The notes under the pieces were generated by a model. It made no database searches and had not been told where the DNA came from. It was given only the letters and a program-made list of their open reading frames with translations. This document shows positions 8,658 to 47,987 of a stretch of 64,000 nucleotides of DNA, one piece after another. Origin of the DNA: [Clostridium] symbiosum (GTDB lineage Bacteria > Bacillota > Clostridia > Lachnospirales > Lachnospiraceae); assembly GCA_021769625.1 (NCBI GenBank), contig JAETSN010000005.1:21368-85367 (forward strand), in the 5' to 3' direction. The stretch's first letter is position 1. Each line of letters starts with the position of its first letter. Made by a program: the position numbers and the translations under genes.

Positions 8658-9112
8658 TTTCTTTCCTCCCTAATGAATTTTATTTTTTTGCGCCGGAACA
8701 GTATTTTCTGTTTCCGTAAATTTACTCTAACCCATCTGTTTTTCAAAATCAATTCAATTTTGTGCAATTTACCTAATTTCGTTCATCTAAACAATACAAC
8801 TTTTTGTATAATATGACATTTTTAGATACAAATTTTGCTTTTCTTGTTGGATATTTTAAGATTTTGTAGGAATTTTTAAGATTATTGAAGAATCACAGGA
8901 AGTTTTCCAGGCTTATCACCCCTGTAAAGTATATGTTAAATTGACCAAAATAAGAAATATATCCCGAAAAATATTGAATATTTTAAACCTCTCCCGGAGA
9001 AGAAGTAATTTTTCACCTTTCCGGAGGGCTCTCACTTTTTATATTATTTTAATAGAGAGACGGATAGTTCATATTTGTTCAGCCACCAATGTCATTTAGT
9101 TTACAGCTCAAC

Positions 9113-9307
9113 CAGCCGGGAGGGGAATCAAATCCTCAAGGAGCCCCTGCAGCAACGTCGGCACAATTGGCAAATGTGAAATTTAAAAAGCAAAATTTCA
9201 CATGGTATTTTCGAGCCTAGTACCGCTACGTTGCAGCCAGCTCTGTTTCTCAAGAGCTTGAGCGGCGAGCGCGGCGACGGAGGATTTGATTTTCCTCCCG
9301 GCGTCCG
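9113..9307 (+). repeat. Dispersed structured element F1, copy 1
   Basis: CAG-CCGGGAGGGGAATCAAATCCTC ... GAGGATTTGATTTTCCTCCCGG-CGTCCG; arms 9116-9137 and 9280-9301 pair over 22 bp with two G-T(U) wobbles; core AAGGAGCCCC / CGTCGGCAC / GAGCGCGGCGACGGAG. Confidence 0.85.
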
Positions 9308-9337
9308 ACTATCCTAATATTTAAATAAGGAAACACT

Positions 9338-25062: not shown

Positions 25063-25089
25063 AAAAGAGTTGTTAAAAAGATTATTATC

Positions 25090-25232
25090 CGGACGCTGGT
25101 AGAATAATAAAAACCTCCGTCGCCACGCTTTCGCTCCAAAAAAGCGTAACGGACACTAAGCTCGTGAAATACCTCGCTAAGTGCCGACGCTTTTTAAGGG
25201 GCTCCTTGAGGTTTTTATTATTCTACCAGCTG
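25090..25232 (-). repeat. Dispersed structured element F1, copy 2
   Basis: Minus: CAG-CTGGTAGAATAATAAAAACCTC...GAGGTTTTTATTATTCTACCAG-CGTCCG; 22/22 complementary arms (25208-25229 and 25096-25117). Confidence 0.9.
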
Positions 25233-25256
25233 GTTATAGATAAGCACTAATTTAAT

Positions 25257-28320: not shown

Positions 28321-28574
28321 AATCCCTCACATTCCACTGCACAGGAGATACACTTGACCGGTCGGCGGACGCATACATCGCCTTACGCCAACCGGATAAA
28401 TCCCTGTACATCCTCTATCATAGTATATGATATTTATGAGAAACTCAATCCTTCGATACAAAAGATAATGTAATTTTAAGAAATATAAGAGCATATACCC
28501 TGTGGAAGTCACAGAATATATGCTCCTTCTAACGCATTTAACCGATATTAGCATCATTAAGTTAATTCTTCAGT

Positions 28575-28756
28575 CAGCGGGTAAGAACATAAAATACTTA
28601 AGGAGCCCTTTGAAAAACGCCGGCACTTAGGCAAATATGAAAATTTCACATGTATTTTAGCGCCTTATGTGTCCGCTGTGTTCTTTCATAGGCTCCTAAA
28701 GAACAGAGCCGGTGAGAGCGTGGCGACGTAGTATTTTATGTTCTTACCCGCGTCCG
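28575..28756 (+). repeat. Dispersed structured element F1, copy 3
   Basis: CA-GCGGGTAAGAACATAAAATACT (28577-28598) ... AGTATTTTATGTTCTTACCCGC (28730-28751)-GTCCG; 22/22 pairing; core AAGGAGCCCTTTGAAAAACGCCGGCACTTAGG...GAGCGTGGCGACG. Confidence 0.9.
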
Positions 28757-28772
28757 CCGTCAGTAACTAACT

Positions 28773-33900: not shown

Positions 33901-33962
33901 CCAAGAATAACTCCTCAAAATCAGATGTAAAATTTAGGACATTTGCACAAAGGGCTGATAAA

Positions 33963-33994
33963 AGCAGGTATCTGTAAAGGTACAGATACCTGCT
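33963..33994 (-). terminator. Terminator downstream of FGGY kinase
   Basis: AGCAGGTATCTGTA/TACAGATACCTGCT then TTTT on minus. Confidence 0.75.
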
Positions 33995-34012
33995 CCAAAA
34001 AATAATATGTAT

Positions 34013-35611
34013 TCAGCTTTTCATATGATCCACTGCCGCTCTTTCGATCGCAAGCCCCGTGCTGTAGAGTTTCATAAATTTCTCAAAGCCCTCCACATCC
34101 GCCGCATCTGGCTCCATCACATAAGCTTCCGCATCTCCAAACACCTTGTTATCCAGATATGTACCGAGATCCTCCCCATCCTCTTTCTGGATCATGTATG
34201 ATGCCAGCAGCGCCATGCCCCATGCGCCGCCTTCCCCTGCGGTAGCCATAACCGATACCGGCGTATTGGTCGCCGCCGCCAGATAGCTCTGCGCCACGCC
34301 TTTTGTCTTGAACAGGCCGCCGTGTCCCTGCAGCTTATCGAGGGTTACGCCCTCCTGTTTGGTAAGGATATCAAAACCGGTCTTTAACGCGCCCATTGTC
34401 GTGTAGAGGTTTGCGCGCATAAAGTTTGCCAGATTAAATTTGCTGTCGGGTCTGCGCACCAGCAGGGGCCTTCCCTCGTCAAAACCGGTGATATGTTCTC
34501 CCGAGTAATAGTTGTAAGCGAGCACATCGCCGCAGTCCTTATCTCCCTCCAGAGACTTATTGAACAGCACGCCGAACAGTTTACCCATATCCACTTCCAT
34601 GCCGTAGCTCTCTGCAAACTCCTTAAAGATGCCCACCCATGCGTTCAGATCGGAAGAGCAGTTGTTGCAGTGCACCATCGCCACCGCATCGCCGCTTGGC
34701 GTTGTCACGATATCAAGCTCCTCATATGGTTTGGACAGATCGTTTTCCAGCACCGCCATACCGAAGATGGATGTCCCGGCGGACACGTTGCCGGTACGCC
34801 TTGCCACGCTGTTGGTAGCCGCCATACCCGTGCCTGCATCCCCTTCCGGGGGGCACATCGGGATACCTGCCTGCAGAGCGCCGCTCGGATCTAACAGTTT
34901 CGCGCCCTCCTCGGTCAGTGTTCCCGCATGTTCACCTGCCACCAATACTTCCGGCAGGATCTCCTCCAGTTTCCAGTCAAATTCTCTCGGCTCTATCAGA
35001 GTATCAAACCGCGCTATCATATTCTTATTAAATTTCTTTGTCGCGATATCAATAGGGAACATACCGGAAGCCTCGCCGACGCCGAGCACTTTCTTTCCCG
35101 TCAGCTTCCAGTGGATGTAACCCGCCAGCGTGGTGAAGAAGGCCACCTCGGAAACATGTTCCTCTTCATTTAAGATCGCCTGATACAGATGAGCGATGCT
35201 CCATCTCTGCGGGATGTGAAAACCGAACAGTTCGCTCAGTTCTTCGCTCGCCTGTCCTGTGATCGTGTTTCTCCATGTCCTGAAAGGTACAAGCAGGTTA
35301 TTTTCTTTATCAAACGCCATATAGCCGTGCATCATGCCGGAAAAGCCGATCGCCGCAAAGCTGCTTACCGCCACGCCGTACTGTTTCTGTACATCCTCCA
35401 CAAGGCTCTTATAACAGTCCTGCACACCCGCCCAGACCGCATCCAGAGAATAGGTCCAGATGCCGTCCACAAGCTGGTTTTCCCAGTCATGGCCGCCGGA
35501 TGCGATAGGCTGGTTCTTTTCATCCACCAGCACCGCTTTTATCCTCGTGGAGCCAAACTCGATACCCAGTACCGCCTTTCCGCTTTGAATCAGTTCTTTT
35601 GCATTGCCCAT
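34013..35611 (-). CDS. FGGY-family carbohydrate kinase (ribulokinase/xylulokinase-like)
   Basis: [68 protein letters not shown]. Confidence 0.85.
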
Positions 35612-45034: not shown

Positions 45035-46162
45035 TCAATGTCCGAGAATATAGCCGCATATCACTTCCGCAACTATCGCTTCTTCCCCATCCTTCAGGTT
45101 ATAGGCATTGATAAACACCACATTTTTTTCCATATGAAATTCCGGCGGATAAACGCCGACATCCACCGCCGGGGTCAGGCTTCTTGTATACTCATTGCAG
45201 TCCTTCGCCGTCATATTTTCCGGCAGATACAGATGCAGGAGCGGTTGATATGTACCGAGCCTTCCCTGACGCAGCATTTCGGTACGGATTCCCGTCCTCT
45301 CCCTCACAGCCTCCGCGATTTTCAGCAGTTTTTCTTCCTGTTTTTTAAACCGTTTTTCCTCATCCTCCGCCACAAACAGCTCCAACGCCGTAATGAAGCC
45401 GACAAGCTCTTCCTTTCCGGTCTTAAATGCCCGCCCCAGCCTCGGGTTGGGACTCGCAAGCATCTTACAAAGGCGGATCAGTTCTTTATCCCCCACGACC
45501 AGTCCCGTGCTCTGTGGTCCCTTGATATGTTTTCCGCCGCTGAAGATTGTCAAGTCTGCCCCCAGCTCCTTTGTATAATACCACAGATTGGACGCGGGTG
45601 GAAGCTGTGCGGCGGCGTCCACGATAATTTTTACCCCTGTTTCCCTCAATACGGGAATGATCTCTTCACAGGTTGGAATTCCTTTCTCATAAAAAGATGC
45701 GGGAAACAGCACACAGGCTGCCGTTCTCTCACCGACCGCTCTCCTGACGGATTCCGCATCCGGTCTCACCTTCACGATCTTTGCCCCCGTCAGTCCGGTC
45801 AGTTTCCAGTATGGGATGATATTCAGCACATCCCCATCCAGAACAATGATCTCATTTCTGGAAAAAGACGAGGTATCCGGCAGCATATCCATCTTCTCCT
45901 CCTGCCCCAGACACATACAGGCACCGGCAGAAAGCTCCAGCCCGGAGGAAGCCCCGGTTGTCACAAAAGCCGCCTCGTTTTTTGTAAGCTGCGCCGCCCT
46001 TTCACATACCGCATCCCGCAGCGCTTCATAATCGATGCAGCATTCCGCCGCCTGCGCCATCGCCTCCACCGTCTCTTTTTCCATCAATGAACCGCCCAGA
46101 TTCGTATAAGGTTCACTGGCATTTATGATTCTTTTTATATGTAATGTCTCATAACAGCTCAT
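45035..46162 (-). CDS. PLP-dependent enzyme, SelA/DgaE-like (D-glucosaminate-6-phosphate ammonia-lyase family)
   Basis: INASEPYTNLGGSLMEKETVEAM; DLTIFSGGKHIKGPQSTGLVVGD (PLP Lys). Confidence 0.82.
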   Translation of the reverse strand: MSCYETLHIKRIINASEPYTNLGGSLMEKETVEAMAQAAECCIDYEALRDAVCERAAQLTKNEAAFVTTGASSGLELSAGACMCLGQEEKMDMLPDTSSFSRNEIIVLDGDVLNIIPYWKLTGLTGAKIVKVRPDAESVRRAVGERTAACVLFPASFYEKGIPTCEEIIPVLRETGVKIIVDAAAQLPPASNLWYYTKELGADLTIFSGGKHIKGPQSTGLVVGDKELIRLCKMLASPNPRLGRAFKTGKEELVGFITALELFVAEDEEKRFKKQEEKLLKIAEAVRERTGIRTEMLRQGRLGTYQPLLHLYLPENMTAKDCNEYTRSLTPAVDVGVYPPEFHMEKNVVFINAYNLKDGEEAIVAEVICGYILGH

Positions 46163-46166
46163 ATTC

Positions 46167-47753
46167 TCAAACCTGTCCTCTTTTTACACATTCTCCGCTT
46201 AAAATTCCCGTCATCTCGCCGTTTTCCAGCACAGGAAGACCATTCACCAGCACAGTCTCTATCCCCTTTGCCCTTTGCCTCGGATTCTCAAAATCCGCCT
46301 GATCTTTTACATTTTCATAATCCATGATACAGATATCTGCATAATTTCCTTCTCTTAGCAAGCCGCGATCTTTGATATGGTATATTTCCGCAGGAAGGGC
46401 CGACAGCTTCCGGATAATATATTCCGCAGGCACTCCCCTCTCCCGCATCACACGAATTGTCCTCGAAAAGGCTCCGAAAGTCCTCGGATGGCATAAAACG
46501 CCCTCCGGGATCGTATCGCTCCCCACGGTATAGCGGTTGTCCGTAAACAGGCGGTACTGGTCATCATACAGCTTTTCCTTCAATTCCTCCGTCTGATTTT
46601 CCACACCCACAAAACCCACTTCCAACTCGTTCTCCAACAGCAGCCGAATCACGGTCTCCTGAAAGGTCTCCTGATGTTCCTCCGAAATCTCCCGCAGCGT
46701 CTTCCCGATCGAATCCGCATATTTGTCTTTTGTCAGGGCAACTCTGGCGGTCTGTCCCTCCGCAAAGAAATACCGGTGTCTCTCCCGCATATCCGCAAGC
46801 AGTTTATCCCGAAGCGATGCAGACGACAGCCTCTCCATGATCTCTTCATAACCGCCCTCCTGCGCCCATCCGGGCAATAATGCCAGAAGAAGCCCTGCTC
46901 CCACCAGATACGGATAAAATTCGTAATGTATTTCCGCACCCTGTTTTTCCAGTTCGGCAAAGGGTTCAAACACACTGCGATGATCCTCTAAGCCGCCGGT
47001 CCTGTAGTGCAGCATATTCAGCCGCACCCCGGTCTCCTCCACCACCTTTACAACCTCTTCCAGAGAAGTCCGCGGTATCTGTCCGTCATTTAAACGCTGA
47101 TGGACACAGAAGATTCCGTCATATTTCTTTACGACCTTACAGAGCTCTATGATCTCCTCCGTATCCGAAAAGCCTCCCGGATAATAGGAAAGCCCGACAG
47201 AAAGCCCCACAGCGCCGCTCAGCATCGCCTTTTCCAGCTCTTCTTTTGCCATCTCCAGACGATCCCCCGTCAGTTTCTGATCCACAAAACCACAGGCGTA
47301 TTCCCGGATGGCATTGTGGGATACATTGGACGCCACATTCACCGCGGCGCCGCCAAGAAGCTCCAGATACTCCGCAAAACTGCTCCATGCCGGAAGATAT
47401 TTCCCCTGATCTGCAAAAATACCCCCATTCATACGGAGGGAACGCTTCAACCCCTCCGGTGTGGTCGGCGCAAACCCCAGACCGCACTGCCCGGTCACGA
47501 TCGTTGTAATCCCCTGATATACCGCATGGGGCTGCTGCCTGTTGTACATCACATTCAGTTCCGAGTGCGTATGCCCATCGATCAACCCCGGCGTAACCGT
47601 CTTCCCCCTCGCATCAATAACTCTTTTCGCCGATCCACCAATCTCTCTGGCAACTTTCACGATCCTATTTTTTACAACACCAATATCACCAATAAAAGGA
47701 ACCTCCCCACTTCCATCAACAATCCTCCCCCCTTTTATTACAATATCATACAT
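46167..47753 (-). CDS. N-acyl-D-amino-acid deacylase family amidohydrolase; start set at MYDIVIKGGRIVDG
   Basis: VTPGLIDGHTHSELNVMYNRQQPHAVYQGITTIVTGQCGLGFAPT; RBS GGAGG before 47753. Confidence 0.88.
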   Translation of the reverse strand: MYDIVIKGGRIVDGSGEVPFIGDIGVVKNRIVKVAREIGGSAKRVIDARGKTVTPGLIDGHTHSELNVMYNRQQPHAVYQGITTIVTGQCGLGFAPTTPEGLKRSLRMNGGIFADQGKYLPAWSSFAEYLELLGGAAVNVASNVSHNAIREYACGFVDQKLTGDRLEMAKEELEKAMLSGAVGLSVGLSYYPGGFSDTEEIIELCKVVKKYDGIFCVHQRLNDGQIPRTSLEEVVKVVEETGVRLNMLHYRTGGLEDHRSVFEPFAELEKQGAEIHYEFYPYLVGAGLLLALLPGWAQEGGYEEIMERLSSASLRDKLLADMRERHRYFFAEGQTARVALTKDKYADSIGKTLREISEEHQETFQETVIRLLLENELEVGFVGVENQTEELKEKLYDDQYRLFTDNRYTVGSDTIPEGVLCHPRTFGAFSRTIRVMRERGVPAEYIIRKLSALPAEIYHIKDRGLLREGNYADICIMDYENVKDQADFENPRQRAKGIETVLVNGLPVLENGEMTGILSGECVKRGQV

Positions 47754-47806
47754 AAAAATACCTCCATATTGATTTGGACACAACCGACTGATGCTTAAAC
47801 CACAAC

Positions 47807-47972
47807 CAGCCGGAAAGAACATAAAATACTGAAGGAGTCCTTTGAAAAACGCCGGCACTTAGGCGCTGTATTTTAGCGCCTTATGTGTCCGCTGCGTTCT
47901 TTCACAGGCTCTTGAAAAACAGAGCCAGCGCGAGCGTGGCGACGAAGTATTTTATGTTCTTTCCGGCGTCCG
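47807..47972 (+). repeat. Dispersed structured element F1, copy 4
   Basis: CA-GCCGGAAAGAACATAAAATACT (47809-47830) ... AGTATTTTATGTTCTTTCCGGC (47946-47967)-GTCCG; 22/22 pairing. Confidence 0.9.
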
Positions 47973-47987
47973 CTTAACCTCAAAACC

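Follow-up and report, generated by a model that had tools for sequence, protein, structure and literature searches.

A family of apparently new, very common mobile structured-RNA repeats in Lachnospiraceae

A short dispersed repeat, represented by at least 147 covariance-model matches in the genome of [Clostridium] symbiosum, apparently constitutes a real, very common and new family of mobile structured-RNA repeats that recurs in other Lachnospiraceae. Target duplications, common ends, empty sites and a conserved fold together argue for a MITE-like element carrying a structured RNA. In the reading that we favor and consider probable, the element is non-autonomous and dispersed, with a conserved structured RNA encoded on its plus strand and retained after insertion, perhaps as a cis-acting part of the transcript. 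Its mobility would have been supplied by a transposase acting in trans, and selection would act on the plus-strand transcript, as the structure is RNA-like and strand-specific.

The analyzed window is a stretch of 64,000 nt (contig C80, positions 21368–85367) from an assembly of 4.08 Mb in 145 contigs. The focal copy, at 28572–28757 on the plus strand, scores 122.9 bits (E = 4.5e-24) with the covariance model. It consists of the 5′ arm (28577–28598) and the 3′ arm (28730–28751) of the outer stem, P1, followed by the boundary GTCCG, and of a core (28600–28728) with the P2 hairpin, an extra hairpin, and a U-GAGA-G tetraloop at 28713–28718; its outer repeats are reduced to remnants. A plain terminator-like hairpin adjoins it on the minus strand (28489–28525). 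Copy 1 (9110–9308, plus strand, arms 9115–9137 and 9280–9302, 113.4 bits) still has a left inverted repeat, CAATGTCATTTAGTTTA, at 9087–9103 and a remnant, GTTCAGCC, at 9077–9084. Copy 2 (25089–25235, minus strand, arms 25230–25208 and 25117–25095, 163.3 bits, fold z –8.8) is flanked by two convergent genes, and copy 4 (47804–47973, plus strand, arms 47809–47831 and 47945–47967, 135 bits) has an antisense gene beside it, with the stop codon at a distance of 15 nt. All four copies are thus found where the preliminary description had placed them, and it was also correct in ascribing to each of them self-pairing arms (here 22–23 nt, each matching its own partner), a conserved core with a covarying inner stem and, for copy 1, two G-U pairs.

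What it took for a four-copy element is, however, a family about 40 times larger. The copies are not chance matches, as the core pattern AGGAGYCCYTN{3,30}CGYCGGCAC yields 106 matches in the genome and none for the reversed control. From this genome 106 complete copies with 70 distinct 5′ arms were extracted, and 84 copies were used to train the covariance model R1. A number of contigs end inside copies (the ends of L037, L052, L053, L061, and L075); therefore the assembly is fragmented by the element, and the true copy number may be higher.

P1 is a stem of about 22 bp (22–23 bp) with nearly free sequence, enclosed by an outer terminal inverted repeat. Conserved CA and GTCCG border it directly at the 5′ and 3′ arm, respectively, and the positions just beyond are unpaired. 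The short helix inside P1 has, as a conserved feature, a tandem G-A mismatch (GGAGYC/GRCGAC); this helix is fully Watson-Crick in one copy (GGCACC/GGTGCC at L033:676) and has T-A partners in two copies with T as the top letter (L005 and L018). Next comes a three-way junction with P2, a long conserved hairpin (ACGYCGGCACUUAG...CUUAGURYCGCURCGU) that falls into three sequence classes, and a GNRA hairpin of two base pairs. The peripheral hairpins at the tip of P2 and beside it are optional and freely combined with arm and P2 types, module shuffling producing 38 combinations among the 106 copies. The outer inverted repeats are CAATGTCATTTAGTTAA...TTAACTAAATGACATTG and, further out, GTAACAGTTCAGCC...GGCTGAACTGTTAC; hence ordinary MITE ends do exist, although the preliminary description overlooked them, and the sequence-free arms are located inside them. 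Partial tandem duplications comprising only the 3′ part (the GNRA hairpin and the 3′ arm) are seen in L190 after 6147, L214 after 1632, and L221 after 1655, and suggest template switching.

The same structure is obtained as the minimum-energy fold of single short copies, with plus-strand z from –6.6 to –12.7, and –6.4 for the focal copy with its extra hairpin. An alternative from RNAalifold, with P2′ pairing with the GNRA region, was dropped, since in the alignment of 84 source-genome copies (A1) each of the three P2 classes covaries with a partner of its own.

In A1, 94.5% of cells are paired, compared to 83.0% upon shuffling, with 470 two-sided cells against 136, and sliding of the partner columns decreases pairing to 36–48%. 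Among 67 copies from other genera (A5), 93.8% of cells are paired, compared to 59.0% upon shuffling, with 1183 two-sided cells against 336, two-sided changes in 49 out of 49 pairs and 32–43% pairing in the sliding controls; as A2–A5 were aligned to the model structure, these pair counts are inflated and the exact percentages lean to the model, unlike the single-sequence folds, which are independent of the model fit. All four Watson-Crick pairs are present in comparable numbers in most P1 columns, and in A5 P2 and the closing pairs of the GNRA loop covary, too.

There is strong support for an RNA fold that is specific to one strand. The tetraloop at the cap belongs to the GNRA type in 92 of the 95 foreign copies and in 78 of the 82 copies from the source genome, with six different loop sequences and covarying closing pairs (GC/GC, AC/GT, and GT/AC). 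In P1 of the plus strand, G-U pairs outnumber A-C pairs by 52:16 in other genera (p = 1.4e-5) and by 24:9 in the source genome; A-C pairs prevail outside P1 in A1, an excess that we ascribe to a C-A mismatch conserved in P2. The plus strand is more stable than its complement in 60 of the 67 foreign copies (p = 7e-11). The loop, the wobble excess, and the stability all point to selection on the plus-strand RNA. The earlier suggestion of a structured RNA thus holds across dozens of genera, and the covariance-model search proposed with it, covering the genome and other Lachnospiraceae, has produced relatives in many genera, with overwhelming covariation.

The element has moved as DNA, with target duplications of 8–9 bp. 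The GTAACAGTTCAGCC...GGCTGAACTGTTAC ends are accompanied by exact 8-bp duplications in two genera, represented by the source genome (L447 and L453, both carrying the core) and G120 (L441–L444 and L446), and CAATG...CATTG ends, by 9-bp duplications (L013, L020, L048, L062, and L077). Both hallmarks of MITEs, terminal inverted repeats (GTAACAGTTCAGCC...GGCTGAACTGTTAC and CAATGTCATTTAGTTAA ends) and target-site duplications (8 and 9 bp), are therefore present, and core-less derivatives with GTAACAGTTCAGCC...GGCTGAACTGTTAC ends exist. Sister species provide pairs of occupied and empty sites, two of them within the window: no copy is present at 46156–46184, where G001 is occupied (L175:5774–5940), and only a plain terminator-like hairpin at 33921–34021, where G006 is occupied (L156:5857–6004). 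With duplications, common ends, and the empty sites that the preliminary description had recommended looking for in related strains, its proposal of a mobile element is borne out. In many old copies the outer repeats are gone, and the core and P1 are retained.

GTAA ends with 8-bp duplications suggest IS66, but it is absent from the source genome (G000), G001, and G120, and was rejected as the mobilizer. The sole 2.7-kb pair of ends (L440) encloses unrelated genes with no recognizable transposase and has no duplication, and was rejected as an autonomous element. A second, different structured element of 165 bp, with GTAACAGTTCAGCC ends, 8-bp duplications, and the interior GAGCGCCAGATTATGAGCAAAGTT..., is present in G120 (L442:222–386 and L446:136–300) and might represent a further RNA cargo.

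Once inserted, the element changes the letters of its stem without losing the pairing, as seen at the same sites in sister species. Orthologous sites were found by Blast of masked flanks, with a copy present in both species; in eight comparisons, 67 P1 pairs have changed on both sides and three on one, L183–L073 being excluded from this count, as it overlaps two of the eight. The copies L183 and L180, clearly one and the same insertion, are distinguished by two compensated pairs plus a single change. L185 and L001 are also one insertion; they have four differences in 168 bases, and flanks that are approximately 90% identical. Shared sites need not all be single insertions, because the arms can differ almost completely.

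This vast excess of two-sided changes, even at one site between species, would also be produced by correction of DNA palindromes, with template switching in the replicating hairpin keeping the arms matched and the core conserved for other reasons, e.g., transposition. This main rival agrees with the fact that the arms of some copies far exceed 22 bp and are still near-perfect (L140 and L196), and that some two-sided changes occur also in the outer arms in G120. On the other hand, among 16 closely related G120 copies compensation decreases with the distance from the core, the ratio of two-sided to single changes being 13:8 in the inner part, 19:44 in the outer part, and 0:15 in the terminal repeat (Fisher p = 0.003), a gradient more in keeping with selection on P1 than with blind repair of palindromes. 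Palindrome correction also does not agree with the GNRA loop, with the excess of G-U over A-C on one strand, nor with the covariation of P2 and the GNRA closing pairs, and so we see it as the less probable explanation, if one to be taken seriously.

A further possibility, which we find rather improbable, is that the core itself is mobile and enters the loops of existing palindromes (terminators, MITE hairpins), borrowing the arms of the host hairpin as its stem; if true, it would be a sequence-free, structure-targeted mobile RNA. The single clear case is the focal locus, where the hairpin GAGCATATA...TATATGCTC in G006 forms the arms around a core, while the window has the plain hairpin plus the focal copy; this is explained equally well by a window lineage that lost the core. 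In G008 the locus contains an ordinary terminator. The lack of relationship between the arms of different genera, and the continuation of some arms into longer palindromes, fit insertion into hairpins, but most copies in the source genome have related arms and fixed CAGC/GCGTCCG borders, and the target duplications lie outside the arms.

The element, which we continue to regard as a MITE-like carrier of a structured RNA, is widespread in one bacterial family. Full-length R1 matches were found in eight out of nine genomes of the same genus and in 137 out of 397 Lachnospiraceae genomes, covering 120 of the 334 sampled genera. The order-level scan gave matches in Lachnospiraceae only, and in a class-wide sample of 394 genomes nine match, all of them Lachnospiraceae, with none among the genomes from outside the family, estimated at approximately 378, as most non-matching genomes are not itemized. 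This absence serves as a control, demonstrating that long hairpins alone do not score. The scan of named genomes retrieved Lachnospiraceae, Butyrivibrio, Dorea, Acetatifactor, and unplaced Clostridiales MAGs, mostly from gut and rumen. The copy number reaches at least 98 in G156 and at least 85 in G120. Phage carriage was rejected, as the core pattern had no match in viral contigs.

Given this range, an ordinary MITE with a core seemingly conserved only through recent copying is quite unlikely: it would account for the inverted repeats and target duplications, but the same core with compensatory changes is found in 120 genera, where its arms are unrelated and its ends differ, old orthologous copies keep the core while the outer repeats decay, and there was no sign that near-identical cores had recently spread horizontally from genus to genus.

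The arrangement of copies varies between genomes. Whole elements in G156 form tandem arrays with a period of 164 or 187 bp (L271, L272, L273, and L274). Those in G055 (L291–L320) mostly form head-to-head pairs with a spacing of approximately 290 bp and both arm types represented, resembling an oversized REPIN; fully hypervariable arms were rejected for this genome, since its arms are of two types, and changes within either type are compensated. In G349, a divergent pair of copies is followed approximately 200 nt downstream by an S10-Clostridia ribosomal-protein leader (L149:1854–1947).

As to the neighboring genes, in 64 out of 89 cases in the source genome (64:25) the gene found on the 3′ side has its own 3′ end facing the element, with genes called by a simple longest-ORF rule, and the element usually lies 6–30 nt past the stop codon, antisense to that gene. 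The bias diminishes to 50:31 (p = 0.045) in other genera, and G006 shows none (13:12). The close spacing would result either from the collapse of useless sequence between the gene and the retained element or from a function at 3′ ends, and part of it could come from collapse or reuse of the outer repeat. An intrinsic terminator was rejected, as there is no T-run on the plus side, and the minus side is only mildly enriched (3.0–3.3 compared to 2.1–2.3 T in 8 nt). The likeliest role would be in cis: a rigid structure of the transcript near gene 3′ ends might alter 3′-end stability, processing, or read-through, making the insertion tolerable or useful. We offer this prediction as a tentative guess.

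No match to the window copies or to divergent copies was found in Rfam 15, at either the gathering cut-off or a loose E-value, the only Rfam matches near copies being separate RNAs outside the element, and a literature search found no paper describing it; both agree with the initial impression that no named family could be recognized. Inspection of ORFs next to low-copy elements yielded no partner protein, the neighbors being ordinary and differing, so that the lack of an accompanying protein gene, noted earlier for the window, holds for these as well. HEARO and the omega RNAs of IscB and TnpB are multi-copy structured RNAs tied to mobile DNA, and the preliminary description considered a guide-RNA element of this type. 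A multi-copy RNA core joined to a variable segment, the would-be guide, resembles them, but this segment is double-stranded, the GNRA-capped fold has no free 5′ or 3′ guide, no nuclease or constant partner gene was seen nearby by ORF inspection, and nothing matched at Rfam thresholds, which makes this explanation very unlikely.

ERIC sequences, or intergenic repeat units, of enterobacteria are intergenic repeats of approximately 127 bp folding as hairpins. They contain a short look-alike string, GAGCGAACGC, but an ERIC copy scores 3.4 bits with the covariance model, that is, at the chance level, and ERIC was rejected as a relative. REP and REPIN elements are 20–40 bp long with conserved tags, the GTAG type having a linked tyrosine transposase (PMC3733652, PMC3116915). 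Judged by this description, the present element of approximately 150 nt stands apart, and the earlier comparison with REP holds in general terms only (intergenic hairpins, some REPs forming inverted dimers, and head-to-head pairs in some genomes such as G055), with nothing closer. BOX of Streptococcus pneumoniae, with approximately 125 copies per genome, is a modular (boxA, boxB, boxC) MITE-like repeat with ends paired in the predicted RNA fold, possibly mobilized in trans by an IS and confined to pneumococcus and near relatives (PMC3049150). As a multi-copy modular repeat with paired ends it is, going by its description only, the nearest in kind; it differs in that the RNA core of the present element is common to 120 genera and its stem sequence is free.

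To our knowledge, RNA-folding interspersed repeats have been known in a few bacteria, each limited to a few species and of unresolved function. Here, a very common structured RNA that is missing from Rfam keeps one fold, with free stem sequence and irrespective of its transposon ends, at up to approximately 150 loci per genome in a dominant family of the gut and rumen. Its many natural variants and orthologous sites make it possible to test if repeats of this kind are selfish or useful.
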